From positions 1 through 37,477 of the forward strand of contig WRAJ01000021.1 of the NCBI GenBank assembly GCA_009780245.1: DNA of 37,477 nt, given 5' to 3'. Every line of letters begins with the position of its first letter. Positions within the stretch are counted from its first letter, which is position 1. This DNA comes from Turicibacter sp. (GTDB lineage: Bacteria > Bacillota_I > Bacilli_A > MOL361 > Turicibacteraceae). Positions 220 to 37,351 of the stretch are shown here, piece after piece. The notes below the pieces were generated by a model. It ran no database searches. It saw nothing but the letters and a program-made list of their open reading frames with translations, and had not been told where the DNA came from. Position numbers and translations under genes: made by a program.

Positions 220-1710
220 TTATTTTTGACTGCTGATAATACCATTAACTGCTTTTTGCCAACCCTCGTACCAGCTATCTCTTAAATCCTCGGCAAGCTG
301 TGCCGAGTAAACCTGCGAGTCCTCGTTCAAGGTGCGAATCCTATCCAGCGACTCCCACACGCCAAAGCCCAGACCCGCCAAGTACACCGAGCCCATCGCG
401 GATAGCTCTGCTAAATCGGACGTTCGGACATCCGCCCCGAGCATATCCGCTTGGAATTGCATCAAGAAGCGATTCTTTGTCGCACCGCCATCTGTGCGTA
501 GCGCTTTCACGGTGATGCCGGATTCCTGTGCAATCAACGTCACCGCATCTTTCACTTGGTAAGCCGTGCTTTCAAGGGCCGCTCGAGCGATATGGGCTTT
601 CCCGCTACTTCGGGTCAATCCAACAATGGCAGCCCGCGCATGCGGATCCCAGTACGGTGCCCCTAAACCAACAAAGGCTGGTATTAAATAAACGCCCTCA
701 TTATCGGGTAGCTTTGCCGCTAGTGGTTCTAGTTCGCCGACATCACCGAATAATTCCAGTTGGTCAATCAACCAATTCATCGTATCGCCCGTTGAGTGGA
801 TGATCCCTTCTAGCGCGTAGCTGACCTTCCCGTCAATCCCCCACGCCACGGATGTCACTAACCCGTTGCCGCCTCGCACCAACTCGCCCGTTTGCATCAG
901 GACCGACGTCCCCGTGCCGTAAGTCGCTTTCGCCATGCCCGGTTCAAAGCACTTCTGCCCGAACAAAGCCGCTTGCGAATCGCCAATCACACCTGAGATT
1001 GGTAGGCCTTTTGCATGGATTTCCTCGTCGGCAATGTGCCCGAAAAGCGCGTTACAACTTTTCACCTCGGGGAGCATCGACTTCGGGATCCCCATAATAT
1101 CAAGGATTTCCTCGTCCCAGCCTAGCGTGTTAATGTTGTACAGCGACGTCCGACTAGCATTCGTCACGTCCGTCGCATGCACCGCACCGTCCGTTAATTT
1201 CCAAATCAACCAGCTATCGATCGTGCCAAGTAGTAACTGTCCGCTCCTAGCTTTTTCTAGCGCACCCGGAACCTGCTCCAAGATCCATTTCACTTTCGTC
1301 GCTGAGAAATACGGGTCCACCGTGAGCCCCGTCTTCTCGAAAATCTTCTCTTCATAACCCTGCTGTTTCAACGCGTCGCAGAGTGTTGCTGTTCGCCGAC
1401 ATTGCCACACAATCGCGTGATGAATCGGCTCACCGGTTGTTTTGTCCCAAACTAGCACCGTCTCGCGCTGATTCGTCATCGCCAAGCCAACCACTTGCTT
1501 TTCTGCTAACACCTCACGGTTGACAACCTCGTTTAACAGCTCTTTCACATTCTCATAAATTTCCGTCGGATCGTGCGCCACCCAGCCCGGTTGCGGGTAA
1601 TACTGCTCGTGCGCCTTCGTCTTCTTCATCACAACCTGCGCCTGCTCATCTACCAACAACGCCTTCGTCCCCGACGTACTCTGATCAATTGCCACGATAT
1701 ATTTTGTCAT
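220..1710 (-). CDS. FGGY-family carbohydrate kinase, glycerol-kinase-like
   Basis: ATP-dependent sugar or polyol kinase of 496 aa, full length for the family. The fold is that of glycerol kinase: an N-terminal phosphate motif IDQSTSGTK, NQRE (R82, E83), W102, Y134 in DPYFSATK, and D244 in GDSQAALFGQ, which correspond to the glycerol-contact residues of GlpK. The GDQQ of typical GlpK reads GDSQ here, so one substrate-contact glutamine is a serine (S245). It is last in an operon with an isomerase and a split transketolase, 12 bp after the transketolase C half, with a GAGGTGG ribosome binding site. A true GlpK normally sits with glpF or glpO/D, so I infer a different substrate, perhaps a branched ketose such as apulose. 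Kinase call is firm; substrate is not. Confidence 0.85.
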   Translation of the reverse strand: MTKYIVAIDQSTSGTKALLVDEQAQVVMKKTKAHEQYYPQPGWVAHDPTEIYENVKELLNEVVNREVLAEKQVVGLAMTNQRETVLVWDKTTGEPIHHAIVWQCRRTATLCDALKQQGYEEKIFEKTGLTVDPYFSATKVKWILEQVPGALEKARSGQLLLGTIDSWLIWKLTDGAVHATDVTNASRTSLYNINTLGWDEEILDIMGIPKSMLPEVKSCNALFGHIADEEIHAKGLPISGVIGDSQAALFGQKCFEPGMAKATYGTGTSVLMQTGELVRGGNGLVTSVAWGIDGKVSYALEGIIHSTGDTMNWLIDQLELFGDVGELEPLAAKLPDNEGVYLIPAFVGLGAPYWDPHARAAIVGLTRSSGKAHIARAALESTAYQVKDAVTLIAQESGITVKALRTDGGATKNRFLMQFQADMLGADVRTSDLAELSAMGSVYLAGLGFGVWESLDRIRTLNEDSQVYSAQLAEDLRDSWYEGWQKAVNGIISSQK

Positions 1711-1722
1711 CGCCAGCCACCT

Positions 1723-2688
1723 CTACTTTGTAAGAAGCTCATGTGCAACCTTAACGACTTGCTTCACACTTAACCCATAGTGCTCAAACACCTCAGCCGA
1801 CTTCCCCGCCACAGCAGGCTCATCCGGTATCCCTAAGATCTTCATCGGAACTGGATGTTGTTGCACCACGACTTCCGCCACCGCAGCGCCCAAACCACCG
1901 TGAATACTATGCTCTTCCAATGTGATAACACAGCCAGTCTCTTTCGCCGCTTTTGCAATCGCTTCAGTGTCTAACGGCTTAATCGTATGGAAATTCAACA
2001 CACGTGCTTGGATACCCTCCTGCTTAAGCTGTTGTGCCGAGTCGAGCGCCACACGCACCGTTTCGCCGGTTGCGATCAGCGTTAAGTCCGTGCCTTCGTG
2101 CATCGTCACTGCTTTTCCTATTTCAAATTCGTAATCTTCGCTTAAATAACAATCTTCTACCGGGTTTCGCCCGACTCTTAGATAGATCGGACGCGGGTAA
2201 TCGATTAAAGCTTCGACCATCTTTTTCGCTTCGTGACGGTCAGCCGGTAGCATCACGTCAAGCCCGGGAATCGCGCGTGTCACCGCTAAATCTTGTACCG
2301 AGTGATGGCTCATCCCAAGCGCTCCGTAGCTAATGCCACCGCTAATCCCGATCAGTTTCACGTTTGTCTGTGAATAAGCAACGCTGACTTTGATCTGCTC
2401 GATGCTTCGCATGCTTAAGAAGCAAGCCGGGGAAGCAACGAACGGAATTTTTCCTGAGTGTGCCAGCCCGGCGGCCACGCCCACTAAATTTTGTTCGGCA
2501 ATCCCGATTTCAACAAGTTGATCCGGAAGCTCTTCGGCAAATTTCACCATGGAAGCCGAGCCGCGCGAATCACTCGTTAGGACGAGAATGTCTGCGTTCG
2601 TTTTGCCATGTTCGAGCAACGTATCGCTGATGACTTGCCGATTGGCGATCTTGTTTGGTTTTGTTCGTTCTAATGCGGTGTGTGTCAT
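1723..2688 (-). CDS. Transketolase, C-terminal subunit
   Basis: A 321-aa protein covering the pyrimidine-binding and C-terminal domains of transketolase. The catalytic glutamate that activates thiamine diphosphate is E65 in EIGIAEQN, and the SHHSVQDLA segment lies downstream as in other split transketolases. It needs the N-terminal subunit encoded just upstream; the two genes share the sequence ATGA, so translation is probably coupled. Split transketolases are common in Firmicutes pathways for unusual sugars (pentose, apiose and sulfosugar routes). Here it would move a two-carbon unit from the ketose phosphate made by the neighbouring isomerase and kinase to an aldose phosphate. Full-length transketolase is about 650 aa, so this is a natural half, not a fragment. 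Confidence 0.92.
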   Translation of the reverse strand: MTHTALERTKPNKIANRQVISDTLLEHGKTNADILVLTSDSRGSASMVKFAEELPDQLVEIGIAEQNLVGVAAGLAHSGKIPFVASPACFLSMRSIEQIKVSVAYSQTNVKLIGISGGISYGALGMSHHSVQDLAVTRAIPGLDVMLPADRHEAKKMVEALIDYPRPIYLRVGRNPVEDCYLSEDYEFEIGKAVTMHEGTDLTLIATGETVRVALDSAQQLKQEGIQARVLNFHTIKPLDTEAIAKAAKETGCVITLEEHSIHGGLGAAVAEVVVQQHPVPMKILGIPDEPAVAGKSAEVFEHYGLSVKQVVKVAHELLTK

Positions 2689-3506
2689 GTTAGTTTCGCC
2701 TCCAGTTCATTTAAGGCTGCTTTATACTGTGCATCGCTTGGTACGTGGTGATGCCAAGCCGGGTTGTTTTCGCCCGCTGGGATCCCCTTTGTTTTGATCG
2801 TATTCGCCATGATCAGCGTTGGTTTCCCGCTTCCCCTTCGATTGGTAGATAAAGCTTCGATTAACTGATTCATGTTGTGGCCATCCACTTCCACCACGTG
2901 CCAACCAAAACTTGTCCATTTTGATGGGAGGGGTTCTAGGGTCATCACATCTTCTGTTGTTCCGCTAATTTGGAGGCGGTTGCGATCGATGATGGCCACT
3001 AAGTTGTCCAGCTTGTAATGGGCCGCTGACATTGCCGCTTCCCAGACGGACCCTTCGGCTTGCTCGCCGTCGCCCATTAAAGTAAAGGTTCGGTAAGCCT
3101 TGCCGTCCATTTTTGCCGCAAGCGCCATGCCCACAGCCACTGATAAGCCTTGACCCAACGACCCGGTGTTCATTTCCACCCCGGCAACTTTATTATTGGG
3201 ATGCGCGATCAACCGCGTGCCAAACCCGCAGAAGGTCTTTAGCTCTTCTTTTTTTATGAAGCCACGATCAGCTAGGACAGCCCATAATGCCTCAGCGATA
3301 TGCCCTTTGCTCAGGATAAAACGGTCACGGGCATCGTCAGTTGGGTTTTGCGGATCGATGTTTAGGACGTTGTGGTATAGCGCGGTGAGGATGTCAATGC
3401 TTGAGAACGACCCACCGATGTGCCCCGCTTTCGCTTCGTGAATCATTTTCAGTACTGCTATGCGAATTTCAGTTGCTTTTCTTTCTAAACGCGTGTTCTC
3501 GTTCAT
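2685..3506 (-). CDS. Transketolase, N-terminal subunit
   Basis: A 273-aa protein with the thiamine-diphosphate-binding half of transketolase. It shows AGHIGGSFS (H29), SKGH (H69) and the ThDP motif starting GDGE at 145-148 and ending in N176. The start has the ribosome site AAGGAG 8 nt upstream. It overlaps the C-terminal subunit gene by 4 bp, so the two subunits form one enzyme. A 211-bp spacer with 42-bp repeats separates it from the isomerase gene upstream; I see no clear internal promoter there, so the four genes are probably one transcript. Function is certain at family level; donor substrate unknown. Confidence 0.93.
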   Translation of the reverse strand: MNENTRLERKATEIRIAVLKMIHEAKAGHIGGSFSSIDILTALYHNVLNIDPQNPTDDARDRFILSKGHIAEALWAVLADRGFIKKEELKTFCGFGTRLIAHPNNKVAGVEMNTGSLGQGLSVAVGMALAAKMDGKAYRTFTLMGDGEQAEGSVWEAAMSAAHYKLDNLVAIIDRNRLQISGTTEDVMTLEPLPSKWTSFGWHVVEVDGHNMNQLIEALSTNRRGSGKPTLIMANTIKTKGIPAGENNPAWHHHVPSDAQYKAALNELEAKLT

Positions 3507-3541
3507 CTGCGTTCTCCTTTTTATTTGATTTCATTCGTGCT

Positions 3542-3700
3542 GATTCCCTATTTACACGAAATAGGAGGTCGTCTAGGGAAATGGTTCCCTATTACCAGCG
3601 AAATAAGGGGGGTGATAGGGAAATGGTTCCCTATTACCAATGAAATAAGGGGGGCGATAGGGAAATTTTTACCTACTATCTTTGAAATAGGGGTGTCCCT
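3542..3700. repeat. 42-bp degenerate tandem repeat inside the sugar operon
   Basis: About four units with a 42-bp period, for example TAGGGAAATGG at 3574 and 3616 and a diverged copy at 3658, with a shorter first copy at 3544. The core TAGGGAAATGGTTCCCTA is a palindrome followed by a GAAATAAGGGG segment. Related sequence occurs at 10444-10567. The period is a multiple of three, so the plus strand shows a repeated peptide in an ORF from 3525, but that ORF overlaps the isomerase gene and has no coding support. Confidence 0.8.
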
Positions 3701-3717
3701 AGGAAAATCACCCTACG

Positions 3718-5154
3718 CTACTTATTCAAATCACTGCCGCGTAGCCACGCCTGGATTTCCGCTTCGGTTGGATCGACTGGATCTGGCGTTAATCCCGGAA
3801 TATACTGGCACGCTTCGTATAGCGCTGGGATCACGTCTTCGTGGATCCCCGTTGAATGGTGAATATAAGGCCCTTTGACTAGCTTCTCTTCCCATAGCGG
3901 CCAGTCGTTCACTTCCACCCACACGTAAGAGCCTCTTGTATACGGCCCTTCGATGCCTTTCGCTTTCCCCAAGAAAATCGAGTACTCGCCGTGATCACCG
4001 TCAAATCTTGCGATCGTCATGTCGCCACCCGCGACTTCTCCCTCAAGAGCGCCTGGGGCTTCATCCTCGAATAACCAGTGACGCTGTAGTTTAGGCTTGT
4101 CTTCAACCTTCATTGATAACGGGAAATTTCCGCAATGGAACAGCAATTCACCGTTTGGATTTTCCGGGTGACGCACCGTAATATCAGCAAAGAACGTCGG
4201 CTTCTGATTCATCGTCGCCGCTTGTACCATAATCGACGTGATCGCACCGTGAATGTCCGTTTCACACGTCGTCGGAATTTGCTCATCCGTTAATAACCCG
4301 TTCACAAAGCACGGCATAATGCCGGTAATGCTTTGCAGCGCTGACCAACATTGAATCGCCACCGCGTTACTTCTGGTCTGCTCCACCATTCGTCTAATCG
4401 CAATTTTCAGTGCGGCCATCTTAGTGATCGACTCATCTGGCAACCCGTCCCAGTCAACCGCTTCTTTCATCAACTTGATTTCATCCGCAAGCACGTCCCC
4501 ACCCATTTTTTCAATCCGTACAACCGATTTTCTTAAATCTTCCAAACTAATCGGGTGGATTTGAATCCCAAACTTTTCTAACAACTCCCCTTCGTTACAA
4601 ATCACTGACCAGAAATCTGACGGTCGTGTGGAAATTTGTAAAATACGCAAGTCTCTAAAATGCTTCACGACATTGGCAGCTGCAATAAAGTTTTTAAATC
4701 CACGTTCAAAAACTGGATCGTCAACCCGACAATTGGTGATGTACGTAAATGTCACACCGAAGCGTCGCAACACTTTCCCAGTGGCGAATAACCCGCATTG
4801 CGTATCGCGAAGTCGCATCCCATCTGCCAGAGGTGCCTCATCTCGTGGTCCCCATAATAGCACCGGCTTATCCAGCGCCTTCGCAACCCGAGCAACAATG
4901 TCCTCCGTTCCAAAGTTACAGTGCGGAACAAACAACGCATCCACTTCCGCATCTTTAAAGCGTCTAATGATTTCAGCTTCTTCGTGACGTTCGTGTAACA
5001 ACCCTTCCTCGTTGATACCTTCCAAATCAATGATGTCGATATCGAGATCAAAACTTTCCATCTTTTCCTTGATCAATACTTTGTACTTCAATGCGTCTTC
5101 CTTACTAAATACGAAGCGTCGTGTTGGTGCATAAGCGAGTTTAAACTTTTTCAT
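3718..5154 (-). CDS. L-fucose isomerase family protein
   Basis: A 478-aa sugar isomerase-like protein of the FucI/AraA structural family, which uses a divalent metal to interconvert aldose and ketose. Candidate metal ligands are E298 in CETDIHGA, D324 in FFADIT and H340 in FHCGNFP (or a histidine in the later IHHSTGIHED stretch). The length fits the shorter FucI-like subgroup rather than the 590-aa E. coli FucI. It is first in the operon with the split transketolase and kinase, so it should make the ketose that the kinase phosphorylates. The AGGAGG site is 8 nt before the start. A promoter and a LacI-type operator lie upstream. Family is clear; the sugar is not. Confidence 0.85.
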   Translation of the reverse strand: MKKFKLAYAPTRRFVFSKEDALKYKVLIKEKMESFDLDIDIIDLEGINEEGLLHERHEEAEIIRRFKDAEVDALFVPHCNFGTEDIVARVAKALDKPVLLWGPRDEAPLADGMRLRDTQCGLFATGKVLRRFGVTFTYITNCRVDDPVFERGFKNFIAAANVVKHFRDLRILQISTRPSDFWSVICNEGELLEKFGIQIHPISLEDLRKSVVRIEKMGGDVLADEIKLMKEAVDWDGLPDESITKMAALKIAIRRMVEQTRSNAVAIQCWSALQSITGIMPCFVNGLLTDEQIPTTCETDIHGAITSIMVQAATMNQKPTFFADITVRHPENPNGELLFHCGNFPLSMKVEDKPKLQRHWLFEDEAPGALEGEVAGGDMTIARFDGDHGEYSIFLGKAKGIEGPYTRGSYVWVEVNDWPLWEEKLVKGPYIHHSTGIHEDVIPALYEACQYIPGLTPDPVDPTEAEIQAWLRGSDLNK

Positions 5155-5186: not shown

Positions 5187-5205
5187 GTTTAGCAAATCAC
5201 TAAAC
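5187..5205. promoter_or_regulatory. Candidate LacI-family operator 1 (isomerase leader)
   Basis: GTTTAGCAAATCACTAAAC is a dyad with 6-bp arms GTTTAG / CTAAAC and a 7-bp centre. The same arms and spacing recur at 5489-5507 before the regulator gene. It lies between the isomerase promoter and start codon, where a bound repressor could block elongation. Confidence 0.6.
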
Positions 5206-5284: not shown

Positions 5285-5362
5285 GTACTTTTGATAAACT
5301 TTTTTAGTTTTATGATAATAAATTTTATGTTTTGTTTAGTTGCATTATTCTTAGATAACATT

Positions 5363-5488: not shown

Positions 5489-5507
5489 GTTTAGCGTTTA
5501 ACTAAAA
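5489..5507. promoter_or_regulatory. Candidate LacI-family operator 2 (regulator promoter)
   Basis: GTTTAGCGTTTAACTAAAA has the same GTTTAG-N7-CTAAA layout as 5187-5205 and lies just upstream of the lacI promoter. The pair suggests that the regulator controls the operon and itself, possibly with DNA looping. Confidence 0.6.
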
Positions 5508-5524
5508 TAGTTTAGTGGAGGGGG

Positions 5525-5587: not shown

Positions 5588-6613
5588 ATGAAAATAGATG
5601 ATATCGCTAGGTTAGCAAACGTCTCAAAATCAGCCGTTTCATTAGCGCTAAACGGGAAAAAAGGCGTCAGCGCCGAAACGCGCGATAAAATTTTAAAAAT
5701 CGCATCCGAACACGGGTACATGACACGCTCCGTTATCAAAACCGAAGCCGACCATTCCAAATTGTTAAGACTGGTCGCTTGTACAAACGGGCACATCGTT
5801 ACCGAGCAATACGAATCCTTGCCCTTTTTTACGGAGTTAATCGGTGATATTAATAAGCAGATTTCTTCTAACGGGTTTTCGCTCATCGTTTCAACCGTCA
5901 ATAGTACAAACCTCGAGGAAGAGATCACACAGCTAGAAAAAAACCAAAAGTCCGCTGGTATTTTACTACTAGGAACCAATTTAAACGCAGAACAAATTAA
6001 ACTGATCGCGACGATGCAACCCAACCTCGTTGTATTAGACACATGCTTTGAAACGTTAGAAGTTAATTTCGTTTCGATCAACAACGTCTACGGCGCTTAT
6101 CAAGCCGGAAAGTTTATCACTGATCTCGGCCATCAAAGCATTGGCTATGTCGCATCCGATGCCAGAATTTACAACTTTGATATGAGAAAAAAAGGCTTCT
6201 TGCAAGCCATGTCAGAATCAGATTTAGAGATCGCAGATGAACACTATTTCTCTATCTCCCCTACCGTTTTAGTTGAACAATCGGTGTTCACTCATGCGAT
6301 TAAAAACCTTAATGGCCAGCTGCCAACTGCCTTGTTTTGCGAAGCGGATTACATGGCGATCAGTGTCATCAAATCACTGACAGAGCTTGGCATTAGGGTT
6401 CCAGAAGATGTTTCTGTTGTTGGGTTTGATAATATTTTTGAGTCTCAAGTTATTACACCGGAGCTGACAACGATTCACGTCAGGAAGGACTCGCTGGCAA
6501 CGTTGGCCGTGGAAAAATTGATTAGTGACATTAGTCATCACCAAGATAAAACGAAGGTGTTTGTTGATACCGAAATCGTCATTCGGAAATCGTGCAAAGC
6601 CATTGGCTCATAA
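5588..6613 (+). CDS. LacI/GalR-family transcriptional regulator
   Basis: A 341-aa one-component regulator. The N-terminal HTH (residues 1-25, IDDIARLANVSKSAVSLALNG) and hinge are typical of LacI/GalR proteins, followed by a periplasmic-binding-protein-like sugar domain ending in the common VPEDVSVVGFDN segment (about 290-305). The start has the ribosome site AGGAGAG 7 nt upstream. It is divergent from the isomerase operon, with which it shares two matching operator dyads, so it most likely represses that operon until its sugar binds. The effector is unknown. A terminator follows directly. Confidence 0.93.
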   Translation: MKIDDIARLANVSKSAVSLALNGKKGVSAETRDKILKIASEHGYMTRSVIKTEADHSKLLRLVACTNGHIVTEQYESLPFFTELIGDINKQISSNGFSLIVSTVNSTNLEEEITQLEKNQKSAGILLLGTNLNAEQIKLIATMQPNLVVLDTCFETLEVNFVSINNVYGAYQAGKFITDLGHQSIGYVASDARIYNFDMRKKGFLQAMSESDLEIADEHYFSISPTVLVEQSVFTHAIKNLNGQLPTALFCEADYMAISVIKSLTELGIRVPEDVSVVGFDNIFESQVITPELTTIHVRKDSLATLAVEKLISDISHHQDKTKVFVDTEIVIRKSCKAIGS

Positions 6614-10443: not shown

Positions 10444-10567
10444 GGTAATTGCGAAATTTCCCTACTTTTACAATATATCAAGGACTATAGGGGAATTTTT
10501 CCCTACTTCCACGAAATAGCAAGGGGCCTAGGGAAATTTATTTCCTAACAGCAATTTCGCAATTGCC
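10444..10567. repeat. 124-bp palindromic element with terminal inverted repeats
   Basis: The ends GGTAATTGCGAAATT (10444-10458) and AATTTCGCAATTGCC (10553-10567) are a nearly perfect 15-bp inverted repeat. Between them are degenerate units with TAGGGAAAT, TTCCCTA and CGAAATAGCAAGG, the same vocabulary as the 42-bp repeat at 3542-3700. The shared core at two unrelated loci suggests a dispersed repeat family, perhaps MITE-like. It lies between tsf and pyrH. Confidence 0.7.
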
Positions 10568-31917: not shown

Positions 31918-33114
31918 CTACAAAAAAGCCAAAACCAACCGAACCAAAACCAACACAACTAAAACCCCCAACAACACCCGATACGGCCACTCAACCCGCG
32001 GCGCCTTAATATACCCCTCAAAATTCTCATCAGTAAAATACAACGTATCCGTATAAAACTTTTTCAACTGCCGATACTCCTGCTTATTCTGATAAATGTT
32101 ACGACAAAAGATCGCGATGATCACACCAAGCGCCAACAATAACATCGCCAGCACAACCTGAGCCCTTTCCGAAGAAGAAGCACAAAACAGCCTGACCCAT
32201 AAATCATTCTGGTCATCCGTCTGACTCACCTCGCTGTAAACATAAATCGCAACCGCAGCCAACCAACCAATCATCTGAGTGTGCACAGCCTTATAAGACC
32301 TAGCCATGGAATTGCTAATCGTTAAAAAATCATCCTTTAACCGATTCACTTGCTCAAAATAGTTTTCCGTCTTATCCGAAATAATGCGATTAAACGCCGA
32401 CTTGGACTTCTCCAACAACCCCTCAACATCAGAAAAAGATTTTACCTTTGCAACCACCTCTCTCACGACTTTCAGCTTCGTTTGGTAAGCGTTCGTATCC
32501 AGCTCATCGTTTACAACCCAGTCATACAACGGATATAACCGAAGCCCCTCCGGCTCCATGAATGACAACCTCAGCTCAAAAGGCTCCTCACTCTTTTCAG
32601 AGCGCACAGAAAAAATAAAATTCCCCTTCTCATAAGCAGAGCTATTAGCCAAAAAGAGCAGCACATAGATATTCTGTACCCACTTTACTCGCTCAGTCCT
32701 TCTCAACAGTTCAAACACATTAACCGAAACCCTTAACTTCGATTTCTCAACCTTCATATCAAGGTTATTCGCAGCAAGAACCGCCTCATAGATCGCCACT
32801 TCATCAGCAACATCAACCTCGATAAAATCTGTTTCAGTTGGATCATCGTAAAGAAATAAAGGCTCTTCGTATTTTTTTACAGAAAGCTTTTCACAAATGT
32901 CATTGAAATGATCTTGACGTTCCATGTAATCTGATTCTAAAAGCAAAAACGCACTGTTTTCAGTCGCATTGCTATAAATCGCTAAAAGTTCATCAAAAGT
33001 CACAAAATTAAAAGCTTGCCGCTTTTCTTTTAGATCACTTAATATTCTTCTATTCTCGCTAGTATCCTTCAAATAATAAGCTTGATGTTGCCAGTGCCCA
33101 TCCAACTGCTTCAT
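31918..33114 (-). CDS. Membrane partner of a putative two-gene defence operon, unknown family
   Basis: A 398-aa protein I do not recognise. The first 265 residues look soluble: mixed alpha/beta to about 200, then a helical, possibly coiled segment (about 211-273). Three TM helices follow: about 281-295, 318-337 and a C-terminal one at 377-397. So a large cytosolic part is tethered to the membrane by its C-terminal end. I use the ATG at 33114, with AGGTGA 6 nt upstream, so it begins just 2 bp after the previous stop codon. Translation is coupled to the upstream soluble partner. The position beside a helicase-nuclease and CRISPR suggests phage defence; this is inference. Confidence 0.7.
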   Translation of the reverse strand: MKQLDGHWQHQAYYLKDTSENRRILSDLKEKRQAFNFVTFDELLAIYSNATENSAFLLLESDYMERQDHFNDICEKLSVKKYEEPLFLYDDPTETDFIEVDVADEVAIYEAVLAANNLDMKVEKSKLRVSVNVFELLRRTERVKWVQNIYVLLFLANSSAYEKGNFIFSVRSEKSEEPFELRLSFMEPEGLRLYPLYDWVVNDELDTNAYQTKLKVVREVVAKVKSFSDVEGLLEKSKSAFNRIISDKTENYFEQVNRLKDDFLTISNSMARSYKAVHTQMIGWLAAVAIYVYSEVSQTDDQNDLWVRLFCASSSERAQVVLAMLLLALGVIIAIFCRNIYQNKQEYRQLKKFYTDTLYFTDENFEGYIKAPRVEWPYRVLLGVLVVLVLVRLVLAFL

Positions 33115-33116
33115 CC

Positions 33117-34070
33117 TCAATCACCTAACTCATTTTTAATGTTTTCCAAAAACGCACTTTCGACCCTCACACTAAGCCAGCCATCTTCAATTTTGATGCC
33201 ATTCTCACGCCTAAGCTTCACGAAATTATTGGTAGATAGTTTCGTATCCTCAGAAACTTGCAGCGTTTTTTTGTATTCCCTATTCAACTCGCTCTCAGAA
33301 ACCGTGAACTCAGAATCAATCAACGCGGCTTGATCCGAGAAAAACTCATCCTCATCTTTCACCTCAATCAATTCGAGTTGATTGAGAGTATGAATCAGTT
33401 TTTCTTTATCAAATACTTTATTCTCAAATAAATAATCTTCCGTCGCAAGTCTTATTTGTTTGATGTTCGGTGCACTTACGATGTCATCTGAAAACAGTTC
33501 ATCACTTTTGATTAATGCAATTAACTCTTTTGTATTTAACGCATCATCTCGTTGCCTAGACAAATCCAAAAAACTTTCTACCCAGTATTTTGCTGCTTTC
33601 GTATTCTTATCCACAATGATGATATTATCAAAGTCATTTTCAAAGATACAAATCTTATAATAACCAGCATCCGTTCCTAGCTGAGGTTTAATTTCATACG
33701 TTCCTAAATCAATGCCTTCTGTTCCTTCAAGCTTCAATAACAACAGTCGACTTGCTGCTTGACTAATAAACAAATGCCCTGCCGGAATTGACTTCTTCCG
33801 CCCATCACCTGATTTTCTCATCTCAGCTTGGAGCAGGCTAGATGCAAAAATTTCAAGTGAAAAGTCTTCTTTCGCTTTGTCATAATCATAGAGCAACACA
33901 TCAGACCTCTGCTGATCTGACGCAAGCGTACAGACTATTCTTGAATGCTTTAACTTCGAATCCTCCCCCAGCAACCTGTCAAAAATCTTTTCAATGTTCG
34001 TTCGCTTTTGATCATCAATGTCTACCCTCTCAACCTCTTCGCCCACATTATAAACCTCTAATCTACTCAC
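33117..34070 (-). CDS. Soluble partner of the two-gene defence operon (DUF4868- or NA37-like?)
   Basis: A 317-aa soluble acidic protein I cannot place firmly. The first half has alternating helices and strands around AEMRKSGDGRKKSIPAGHLFIS, KYWVESFLDLSR and DIVSAPNIKQIRLATEDYL. This vaguely recalls the nucleoid-associated YejK/NA37 proteins or the DUF4868 (KwaB) domain. The C-terminal end, FVKLRRENGIKIEDGWLSV, could be a small DNA- or peptide-binding domain. I favour the GTG at 34070 with GAGAGG 9 nt upstream; a GTG at 34079 lies on the site. Own promoter upstream. Function unknown. Confidence 0.7.
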   Translation of the reverse strand: MSRLEVYNVGEEVERVDIDDQKRTNIEKIFDRLLGEDSKLKHSRIVCTLASDQQRSDVLLYDYDKAKEDFSLEIFASSLLQAEMRKSGDGRKKSIPAGHLFISQAASRLLLLKLEGTEGIDLGTYEIKPQLGTDAGYYKICIFENDFDNIIIVDKNTKAAKYWVESFLDLSRQRDDALNTKELIALIKSDELFSDDIVSAPNIKQIRLATEDYLFENKVFDKEKLIHTLNQLELIEVKDEDEFFSDQAALIDSEFTVSESELNREYKKTLQVSEDTKLSTNNFVKLRRENGIKIEDGWLSVRVESAFLENIKNELGD

Positions 34071-34129
34071 ATCCGTCACCCTCTCTTTAGCATTATTGGA
34101 AACCTTCGATCGTCTCTTGTCTTAATTTC

Positions 34130-34157
34130 ATTATACCGCTTTCCATCCGAATTACAA
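34130..34157 (-). promoter_or_regulatory. Promoter of the two-gene operon
   Basis: Minus-strand -35 TTGTAA (34152-34157), 16-bp spacer, -10 TATAAT (34130-34135), about 60 bp before the start. Confidence 0.65.
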
Positions 34158-34289
34158 CCTCTTACGGAACAGATATCATCAAAATAACCCAAAAACGGTG
34201 TGTTGTTTGAGGTGCTTTGCAAAAATAAAGCAACTTTTTGACCACTGTATTTTCATTTTAAACTGATCAATATCGCTGATATTCATAAT

Positions 34290-36200
34290 TTAAATTACTG
34301 TACTATTTCTTCGGAAAAATATTTCAAAAGCACTAGTACTAAGATCTAAGATGAACAACTTCTTTTTTGCACGAGTTATTCCAGTATAAATTTCCTCTGG
34401 ACTTAATCCATTTTTCTTATCTGTCAGAACTAAAACTACTACATCTTCATCATAACCCTTAAAGCTATGAACTGTTGATAATTTTGTATGTCCGGAATTT
34501 TTTCGAAAATTTATTTTCAGCAATCGCTCAAAATTTTTAATATTTTTTTTCAACAATTGTTCATAACTATTGCTAATTTCCCTTTCAAATTCAAGTTTTG
34601 GATTTTTCTTTATTAATGCCCATTCCTCATTAGAACGTTTTTCTATCATCTTAAATTCTTTATTAGTTACAAAAGTACGATTGATACCTTTTTCATTCAT
34701 TTTCCTGAAGTTTTCCTGTATTATATCAAAAATTTCACGAAGAATCGCCTTGCTATAAGCTAAATAAGTGTAATCATTAGGAGAGATTCGCTCCTCAATT
34801 AAATATTTTTCAATAGCAATAATCCCTTGCGTTATTTGTTCTTTCTCAATTTTATAATAAATGACTTGTGAAATATCAAGGCTGAAATCGAGTACCCCTT
34901 GACCTTCCGCAATACCTAATTCCGACAAAGATACAAATGCTTCCTCAGATATTTCAGGGAGATATTCTTTTTCAAAAACCTGCGCCACTTCCAACACATT
35001 TCCTTTAGAACGATAAGAATTCGTTAATCCTCTCCACTTCCAATTCATGTGGGGGATAATTGGTAACTTGTCAATTCCCATCTCTTTTTTATAAATATTC
35101 TGTGAAACATCACCACACACCATGAAAAGACCATCTTCTTTCAGAAAATATTTTTCTACAATCCGCAACCAATTTTCTTCATAATCTTGAACCTCATCAA
35201 TAAAGACCGCATCATATCGACGAGGACTACCTCCTTCAAAAAAGGACAGCTTTGCCCAATCATCGTAAACATCATATGACAACTTTTTTTCACAGTTATT
35301 CGCTTCAGTAGCAAAATACTCATGATAATTACTAATAGTTAAATTTTTATTCTTAATTGTTTTCCTTGCACTATTTCGTATACGATCCTGCAAATAATTC
35401 CTTAGGGTAATATTAAAAGTTAGTACTAGTACTTCTAATTCTTCATCAAGAGCCATTGAAATCCGCTTAGCTAAAACCTCTGTTTTACCGCTTCCGGCTA
35501 TGCCATGGAATTTCAATCGTTTGTTTGTGGTTTTTATAATAGAGCGCTGTTGATCATCAAATTTAACTTCTCTTTGTTCAATCTCAGCACTAATAGGTAG
35601 CAGATATTGGGCAATGCTTCTATACAGTGTATCATTCAGTTGTGATGTTCTTATGCTCATAAAATTTTCTAAAATAGAAAAATCACCAAAAGAATTCACA
35701 TCAAATATCTTAGTAAATCGATGAGTATTTGAAAGTTCATCTTTAGAAAGTCTGTATGTACTTGAGGTCAAGAACACTGCCGTTCTGACTAGCCCATATA
35801 TCGATTCATTCTTGAACTTCTCACGTAATAATTCAAGAGAATGCTTCTCAAACAAATTATTTTTATATTTCAACACTTGTTGGAATGGACTTGCAATTTT
35901 CGCTTTATTATTTTTTAAAGACCATTCATTACCAGAACCATTCACATTATAATAAGCTAGATTCCAATCTTTAACCTCAATGATCCATACTCCACCTCCT
36001 GAGGTAGCATTTGACTTTTCAAGAATAACAAAATCTGGGCGATCACCATTAATATTGGGTTGAACGTGTAATTCAAAAAATCTTCCAGTCAAGCACTCTA
36101 ACCCTTTTTTAAAATAATCATAAACCTGCCATTCCCCATCAGTCATCGGTGTTTTGAAATTTCTAATTTCCTCTATTGAGGGATAACTAATAACATTCAC
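34290..36200 (-). CDS. NERD nuclease / SF1 helicase fusion
   Basis: A 636-aa protein. The N-terminal NERD (nuclease-related) domain carries PDFVILE (D56) and IIEVKDWN (E75, K77), the D-ExK set of PD-(D/E)XK nucleases. A UvrD-like SF1 helicase follows: Walker A GIAGSGKT (233-240), motif II FIDEVQD (333-339), STVHSFKGYDED near 580 and the arginine motif YTGITRAKKK near 610. It should unwind and cut DNA. NERD-helicase fusions are often in defence islands, and staphylococcal Nhi is a nuclease-helicase with anti-phage activity. The start is a GTG with GGAGG 7 nt upstream. Codon use is AT-rich compared with the rest of the window, suggesting transfer. Confidence 0.88.
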   Translation of the reverse strand: MNVISYPSIEEIRNFKTPMTDGEWQVYDYFKKGLECLTGRFFELHVQPNINGDRPDFVILEKSNATSGGGVWIIEVKDWNLAYYNVNGSGNEWSLKNNKAKIASPFQQVLKYKNNLFEKHSLELLREKFKNESIYGLVRTAVFLTSSTYRLSKDELSNTHRFTKIFDVNSFGDFSILENFMSIRTSQLNDTLYRSIAQYLLPISAEIEQREVKFDDQQRSIIKTTNKRLKFHGIAGSGKTEVLAKRISMALDEELEVLVLTFNITLRNYLQDRIRNSARKTIKNKNLTISNYHEYFATEANNCEKKLSYDVYDDWAKLSFFEGGSPRRYDAVFIDEVQDYEENWLRIVEKYFLKEDGLFMVCGDVSQNIYKKEMGIDKLPIIPHMNWKWRGLTNSYRSKGNVLEVAQVFEKEYLPEISEEAFVSLSELGIAEGQGVLDFSLDISQVIYYKIEKEQITQGIIAIEKYLIEERISPNDYTYLAYSKAILREIFDIIQENFRKMNEKGINRTFVTNKEFKMIEKRSNEEWALIKKNPKLEFEREISNSYEQLLKKNIKNFERLLKINFRKNSGHTKLSTVHSFKGYDEDVVVLVLTDKKNGLSPEEIYTGITRAKKKLFILDLSTSAFEIFFRRNSTVI

Positions 36201-36267: not shown

Positions 36268-37351
36268 ATTTCGCCACACACACCTAAACAAGGTGCGACA
36301 GATAAAAACTCTCATCAAGGAACGGCATACTTCTATTTCAATCCACGCACCTAAACAAGGTGCGACCAATTCCGAGTGATGCACGATGAGCTTTTTTTGT
36401 AATTTCAATCCACGCACCTAAACAAGGTGCGACAGCCGTTGTTATTACTGATGATGATCACTGCATAATTTCAATCCACGCACCTAAACAAGGTGCGACC
36501 AAACTTGACAAAGACTTTATGTCAAAAGGATCAATTTCAATCCACGCACCTAAACAAGGTGCGACATGCGCTATCTTCTGTGTCTTCTTCATGACGTGGC
36601 ATTTCAATCCACGCACCTAAACAAGGTGCGACCTTGTTGGTTCAGGTTAATAGTCCTTGTCGGATTATTTCAATCCACGCACCTAAACAAGGTGCGACGG
36701 TTGCTTTTTCGGGACACTAGAGGAGTTTACTGAATTTCAATCCACGCACCTAAACAAGGTGCGACAAATTAGAAATATGTGTCGTTATGCCTTAATTTTA
36801 TTTCAATCCACGCACCTAAACAAGGTGCGACAGAAGAATGCTATCTACATTTCGACACAAAAAGTATTTCAATCCACGCACCTAAACAAGGTGCGACCCG
36901 AGCAGGGCGCGGAACGAGTCACCGGATCGTCAATTTCAATCCACGCACCTAAACAAGGTGCGACAGCAATTTTAAATCTACGATCACGCCAGATTTTTTA
37001 TTTCAATCCACGCACCTAAACAAGGTGCGACACAGTTATCGCAATCAGCGACAGAAGATCAACTTATTTCAATCCACGCACCTAAACAAGGTGCGACAAC
37101 ATCACTTCGTCATGGGTTGCGCCCATTTCCTATTTCAATCCACGCACCTAAACAAGGTGCGACCAAAATCATCTAGCAAGTCCTCAATTTCTTTTCCAAT
37201 TTCAATCCACGCACCTAAACAAGGTGCGACAGCATGGTTATCCTGTGTCGCGAGGGTTTGTCGAATTTCAATCCACGCACCTAAACAAGGTGCGACAAAC
37301 ATATCCAACAATATATTCGACGGAATTATCATTTCAATCCACGCACCTAAA
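36268..37351 (-). CRISPR. CRISPR array, type I-C-like repeat, 16 spacers
   Basis: Seventeen repeats of 32 bp with spacers of 34-35 bp. Repeat starts: 36268, 36335, 36402, 36468, 36534, 36601, 36667, 36734, 36800, 36866, 36933, 37000, 37066, 37132, 37199, 37265 and 37331. On the minus strand the repeat runs GTCGCACC...GGTGCGTGGATTGAAAT with a GTCGCACC/GGTGCG palindrome and the ATTGAAA end, as in type I-C systems. The repeat at 36268 has five changes, the usual mark of the leader-distal end, so the leader should be on the right. The repeat at 37331 is cut after 21 bp. Fifteen repeats are identical. No cas gene is in the window. Confidence 0.98.

Follow-up and report, generated by a model that had tools for sequence, protein, structure and literature searches.

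The window analysed here (the whole 37,477-nucleotide stretch of Turicibacter sp. contig WRAJ01000021.1, assembly GCA_009780245.1; contig C21 in our numbering, from base 1) carries on its minus strand an operon for an isomerase, a transketolase split into two subunits and a GlpK-like kinase, which very probably encodes the non-oxidative D-apiose pathway in a Firmicute version. Apiose is a branched plant cell-wall sugar that occurs in pectin (rhamnogalacturonan II, RG-II) and in many plant glycosides. What was computed directly is the gene content, its conservation, the placement in trees, the residues of the kinase pocket and the neighbourhood, and from these we infer every catalytic step and the inducer in the window organism (genome of 2.1 Mb, 76% complete). 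The content originally predicted for positions 220-5154 was borne out, as all four genes are intact open reading frames (ORFs), but the extent was too narrow because a divergent LacI-family gene travels along with them. The unit consists of the following genes:

220..1710, minus strand: putative apulose kinase, an FGGY-family enzyme from the GlpK branch (496 aa; FGGY_N/C 255/132 bits)
1723..2688, minus strand: transketolase C-terminal subunit (TKC), putative apulose-4-phosphate transketolase subunit B (321 aa; Transket_pyr and Transketolase_C, 111 bits each)
2685..3506, minus strand: transketolase N-terminal, thiamine pyrophosphate (TPP)-binding subunit (TKN), putative apulose-4-phosphate transketolase subunit A (273 aa; Transketolase_N 171 bits)
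3718..5154, minus strand: putative D-apiose isomerase, L-arabinose/L-fucose isomerase superfamily, ApsI-like (478 aa ORF)
5588..6613, plus strand: divergent LacI-family regulator (LacI helix-turn-helix and Peripla_BP_3), adjoining the isomerase genes of 71/80 relatives

Read leftward, the order is isomerase, TKN, TKC and kinase, with the TKC and TKN frames overlapping by 4 nt, and the LacI gene begins 433 bp off in the opposite direction. The genes 3' of the kinase are not visible because the contig ends 219 bp past it.

The non-oxidative route (ApsI, AplK, AptA, AptB; MetaCyc PWY-8089, D-apiose degradation I) was reportedly described by Carter et al. in 2018, and the reactions proposed here are those of that route, running from apiose through apulose and apulose 4-phosphate to dihydroxyacetone phosphate (DHAP) and xylulose 5-phosphate. 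Through the isomerase, D-apiose would become D-apulose, a ketose; the GlpK-like kinase would phosphorylate a hydroxymethyl group of apulose (whose branch point is akin to glycerol or dihydroxyacetone) to give D-apulose 4-phosphate, and the two-subunit transketolase would pass a two-carbon piece from apulose 4-phosphate to glyceraldehyde 3-phosphate, leaving DHAP and xylulose 5-phosphate as products. A LacI-type repressor would sit on TTTAGT-type sites until released by apiose or a derivative. Many relatives would obtain the sugar from plant apiosides with the help of a neighbouring apiosidase, a phosphotransferase system (PTS) or ATP-binding cassette (ABC) transporter and a GH1 beta-glucosidase. 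The logic of isomerase, apulose kinase and apulose-4-phosphate transketolase A/B had been put forward in the original prediction; phylogeny, pocket residues, neighbourhood and the comparison with a growth-proven cluster back it as a putative specificity.

Conservation of the operon and placement of its transketolase

A genome scan with the isomerase as the only query recovered 80 loci (71-78% identity) from Bacillaceae, Paenibacillaceae and closely related bacteria, which amounts to at least 80 other bacteria from soil, plants and gut, plus Listeria. TKN accompanied the isomerase in 80/80 loci, TKC and the kinase in 79/80 each, and the divergent LacI gene in 71/80, and this gene order is conserved far above chance. 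More distant syntenic copies were found in Listeria monocytogenes and Monoglobus pectinilyticus. Within the window organism's own order the operon is patchy and may have been acquired from elsewhere, since just one of eight genomes has the isomerase. As an observation on a single relative, codon 411 of the Paenibacillus turpanensis isomerase gene (L104:9001-10431) is an in-frame stop, for which decay or a sequencing error are both possible.

In a TKN tree that included the second split pair of the window genome, the operon subunits and AptA of E. coli and Klebsiella formed one group (96/96), to which the remaining split transketolases from these genomes did not belong; some branches are long, among them the stem that carries AptA within the group. 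Identities of the window proteins were 44% for TKN to AptA and 36-39% for TKC to AptB. The possibility, raised beforehand, that this transketolase is the sole housekeeping copy was ruled out, as the genome holds three transketolase sets: besides that of the operon, a full-length enzyme (contig C17) and an intact split pair next to genes for a transaldolase and a xylosidase-like protein (contig C12), where the apparent stops in the transketolase match interrupt neither subunit ORF.

The growth-proven counterpart is enterobacterial. E. coli SE15 carries aptA, aptB and aplK, strains of E. coli (STc131/STc14) and E. fergusonii that possess the cluster use D-apiose for growth, and the E. coli cluster, unlike that of Pectobacterium, is without apsI (PMC13001218). 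Clusters that otherwise match the one in E. coli and have an additional "L-fucose/L-arabinose isomerase family" gene were found in Klebsiella, Rahnella and Sodalis, and on account of this synteny we took their isomerase as the ApsI equivalent. With D-apiose degradation I of Pectobacterium and Escherichia the window operon shares the combination of isomerase, FGGY kinase and split transketolase, as well as the AptA clade, the kinase pocket residues and the isomerase superfamily. It differs in gene order (isomerase-TKN-TKC-kinase), in a kinase closer to the GlpK branch, in an isomerase subfamily that is 27% identical, and in its LacI regulator where the enterobacterial cluster has a "sugar-binding transcriptional regulator". 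The Firmicute operon is also without the ribose-type ABC set with a DUF2291 protein, and its relatives have an apiosidase and PTS, ABC or GH1 partners instead. The pathway itself is known; the operon represents a variant of it in Firmicutes, distinct in regulator, kinase lineage, isomerase subfamily, transport and associated hydrolases.

Kinase and isomerase specificity

The kinase scored 615.4 bits against the GlpK model TIGR01311 of NCBIfam and thus passes its cut-off (590.35), whereas the kinases of the Monoglobus operon (566), the Listeria operon (484) and Klebsiella AplK (481) scored lower. A score of this kind is what would be expected if the operon served the use of glycerol or a glycoside of glycerol, with a genuine glycerol kinase feeding central metabolism, and a link with glycerol metabolism and a modest one with intracellular growth have been described for the Listeria operon (PMC3091722). 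In the kinase tree, however, true GlpKs formed a clade (100/100) that took in the GlpK paralogues kept separately by operon-bearing genomes and no operon kinase, and a further tree gave a similar picture; the clustering with proven glycerol kinases that could have undone the original prediction was thus not observed. The operon kinases were compatible with one clade (approximately unbiased test, p-AU 0.47), and AplK, to which the window kinase is 39-44% identical, lay further out and was not their sister, in a tree whose root is unsure.

The pocket residues separate the two groups in the same way. At positions 246 and 270 (E. coli GlpK numbering), Ser/Ser was found in 84/84 operon kinases and in 2/2 AplK, and Gln/Phe in 9/9 GlpK. 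Q246 and F270, together with D245, R83, E84, W103 and Y135, are residues that we take to contact glycerol in E. coli GlpK crystal structures; the latter five are conserved in the operon kinase, and the change from Phe to Ser at 270 would widen the pocket on the substrate side. The window kinase, like GlpK, is an FGGY enzyme and is about 46-50% identical to the GlpKs of related genomes, but it differs from them in Q246S and F270S, in its P-loop (DQSTSGTK instead of the DQGTTSSR of GlpK) and in its position outside the GlpK clade. A glycerol operon, which would need neither an isomerase nor a dedicated transketolase, is therefore very improbable and was rejected on the clade exclusion and the two pocket substitutions, and the gene labelled "glycerol kinase" in databases probably encodes an apulose kinase. 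If so, the curated glycerol-kinase model seems to over-call, and residues 246/270 distinguish apulose kinases from glycerol kinases.

The isomerase was above the cut-off of no curated family in Pfam or NCBIfam. Its Fucose_iso_C match in Pfam was weak (22.2 bits, below the gathering cut-off of 29.3), and its only NCBIfam match was the sulfoquinovose isomerase SftI (NF048012; 104.7 bits, cut-off 700). A PDB sequence search returned nothing up to E = 1, so folds were compared instead: with an AlphaFold2 model (mean predicted local distance difference test, pLDDT, 69.5; predicted template modelling score, pTM, 0.76; poor at residues 319-435), Foldseek ranked L-arabinose isomerases best (E 5.7e-16), followed by L-fucose isomerases. 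The family residues E298, D324, H433, H340 and R383 are conserved, and the first three, going by what is known of the family, would correspond to the metal ligands of the superfamily. The SftI match, together with the occurrence of split transketolases in the sulfo-transketolase (sulfo-TK) pathway, could be read as isomerase and split transketolase acting on a sulfosugar, i.e., sulfoquinovose. We regard this as barely credible and rejected it, since the score is far under 700 and is paralleled by an equally weak one (114 bits) for the isomerase in the apiose-type cluster of Klebsiella; moreover, a sulfoquinovosidase, a sulfonate exporter and a sulfoaldehyde reductase were not seen among the annotated neighbours, and the sulfo-TK pathway requires no sugar kinase.

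That the isomerase belongs to the L-fucose family had originally been taken to indicate either a variant pathway or a different sugar. The first part remains the favoured reading; the second lost its ground because the isomerases in the apiose-type clusters of Klebsiella, Rahnella and Sodalis belong to that family too, the window enzyme being 27% identical to the one in Klebsiella (E 7e-42).

Hydrolase and transport genes near the operon

In relatives, neighbouring genes suggest a link between the operon and apiosidases of family GH140. A hidden Markov model (HMM) built from neighbour proteins was searched in 80 stretches of about 19 kb, and GH140-like genes lay within about 10 kb of the operon in 36/80 loci, against about 0.5 expected from the roughly two PF13204 genes per genome (50 operon-bearing genomes); those at loci L050 and L066 were caught by this HMM and missed by PF13204 itself. 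The genes occur on either side of the operon in varied arrangements, and with at least 15 gains or losses of the trait on the isomerase tree, this is not one inherited arrangement. Strong PF13204 members were present in 16 of the 36 loci, plus Listeria (309-334 bits in three scanned by Pfam), and one of them matched the PDB entry 8t9w, "Apiosidase", at 6e-26, and also BT1012 (PDB 5msy); PF13204 is what the neighbour genes of related loci share with these GH140 enzymes.

Strong members were often accompanied by beta-glucoside PTS genes and GH1 enzymes, and no obvious signal peptide was seen in the proteins inspected, which suggests that an apiosyl-glucoside enters by the PTS, that apiose is removed in the cytoplasm and that the glucoside is then cleaved. 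Four Paenibacillus loci (L058, L074, L085 and L113) have genes for sugar uptake, among them one for an ABC-type solute-binding protein, and a glycoside hydrolase gene inside the operon.

Several observations weigh against an apiose pathway, in addition to the score of the kinase on the GlpK model. At 20/36 loci the GH140-like neighbour is only of the DUF5060/DUF5605 type or a weaker relative (roughly 44-78 bits), distant from PF13204 and of putative activity; the closest solved structure of the DUF5060/DUF5605 type is labelled "putative glycoside hydrolase". Neither a PF13204 gene nor a second GlpK was found in the window's own genome, at its 76% completeness and with the contig ending shortly after the kinase, and a transporter next to the operon is not visible in the window. 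The isomerase tree places another subfamily between the operon and the enterobacterial isomerases, a single clade of the two being not rejected (p-AU 0.096), the ApsI role of the enterobacterial isomerase is itself deduced from synteny, and a sugar closely resembling apiose could be the substrate. In a broader form of this objection, the same isomerase, kinase and transketolase logic would serve an aldose other than apiose (a tetrose, or a different branched or furanose-forming sugar) that the GH140-like enzymes set free. The low identity of the two isomerases, whose sister relation the tree does not establish, would fit such a sugar, as would the distant PF13204 relative being the commonest neighbour type and the action of split transketolases on several sugars, the C12 pair standing in a xylose-type context. 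The grouping of TKN with AptA, kinase residues identical to those of AplK at the two diagnostic positions and strong GH140 members in 16 loci and Listeria argue for apiose, and we consider a different sugar decidedly improbable.

A second kind of hydrolase gene, with the nucleoside-hydrolase fold, stood beside the operon in 20/80 loci:

L091:13752-14696, L071:17458-18981 and 18 more loci: nucleoside-hydrolase-like genes (PF01156 cluster with the motif INTDAKxEADDQ; PF07632, Sde182-like)

In the PF01156 cluster, the first Asp of the usual nucleoside-hydrolase motif is Asn. These and the GH140-like neighbours occurred together in 2 loci and one without the other in 18 and 34 loci, respectively (Fisher p 2e-4), while a tree-aware independent-pairs test of this exclusion, which was underpowered, was not significant. 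Nucleoside hydrolases hold a furanose 2,3-diol through calcium, and apiofuranose has such a diol. It is conceivable, if on balance unlikely, that these neighbours are a second, unrelated class of apiosidase that replaces GH140. No nucleoside-hydrolase-like protein was found when sought in the window's genome.

Listeria orthologue, regulator and other features of the window

The Listeria monocytogenes genes lmo1030-lmo1036 (L119:4004-13086) form an orthologous operon with the order and orientation seen in the window (identities of 48% for LacI, 53% for the isomerase, 62% for TKN, 63% for TKC and 44% for the kinase). Directly after the kinase, in the region before which the window contig ends, Listeria has a beta-glucoside PTS transporter and an apiosidase-like PF13204 enzyme (313 bits). 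This operon has been termed an "operon responsible for glycerol metabolism" and assigned to fucose utilisation, and intracellular replication of an lmo1031-1036 mutant was modestly lower (PMC3091722); lmo1036 is labelled a beta-glucosidase in the literature. No publication tying the apiose pathway to Listeria or Paenibacillus was found in the open literature, although Carter et al. 2018, which lay beyond that search, may already propose parts of it. If the apiose reading is true, lmo1030-1036 gains a testable function in place of glycerol or fucose metabolism, and a large set of genes that carry the labels "glycerol kinase", transketolase and "L-fucose isomerase" in Firmicutes share one role in apiose use.

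The LacI orthologues beside the 71 isomerase genes are 44-69% identical, and the half site AACTAAAC was found in 59/66 divergent intergenic regions (shuffled-sequence mean 1.85), so that the regulon looks shared among relatives. In the divergent intergenic region of the window, the following sites were located, none assigned to a strand:

5500..5517: probable LacI operator, inverted AACTAAAATAGTTTAGTG; its half site AACTAAAC is the one common in the relatives' intergenic regions
5198-5205 and 5334-5341: single half sites

The gap between the isomerase and TKN genes contains a repeat that is genome-wide and not part of the pathway:

3557..3682, no strand assigned: three 42-bp palindromic repeats

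Their core palindrome TAGGGAAATnnTTCCCTA recurs at window positions 10488-10508 and at dozens of sites elsewhere, with 75 strand-wise matches over the genome (control 0); it is a dispersed intergenic repeat of this organism. At the contig edge (positions 1-186) there are three 62-bp direct repeats, two of them identical, with copies of about 70% similarity on contigs C1 and C4; a search through these end repeats for the downstream operon genes in the same genome yielded such weak copies elsewhere and nothing more. Toward the other contig end, positions 36280-37300 hold an array resembling clustered regularly interspaced short palindromic repeats (CRISPR), with a repeat of about ATTTCAATCCACGCACCTAAACAAGGTGCGAC and a period of 66-67 bp. 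Beside it, positions 31918-36200 (minus strand) carry a gene for a NERD+UvrD-type helicase (PADLOC C3a187, 159 bits) and, after it, two genes that matched nothing in Pfam or PADLOC, and this region is possibly a defence island.

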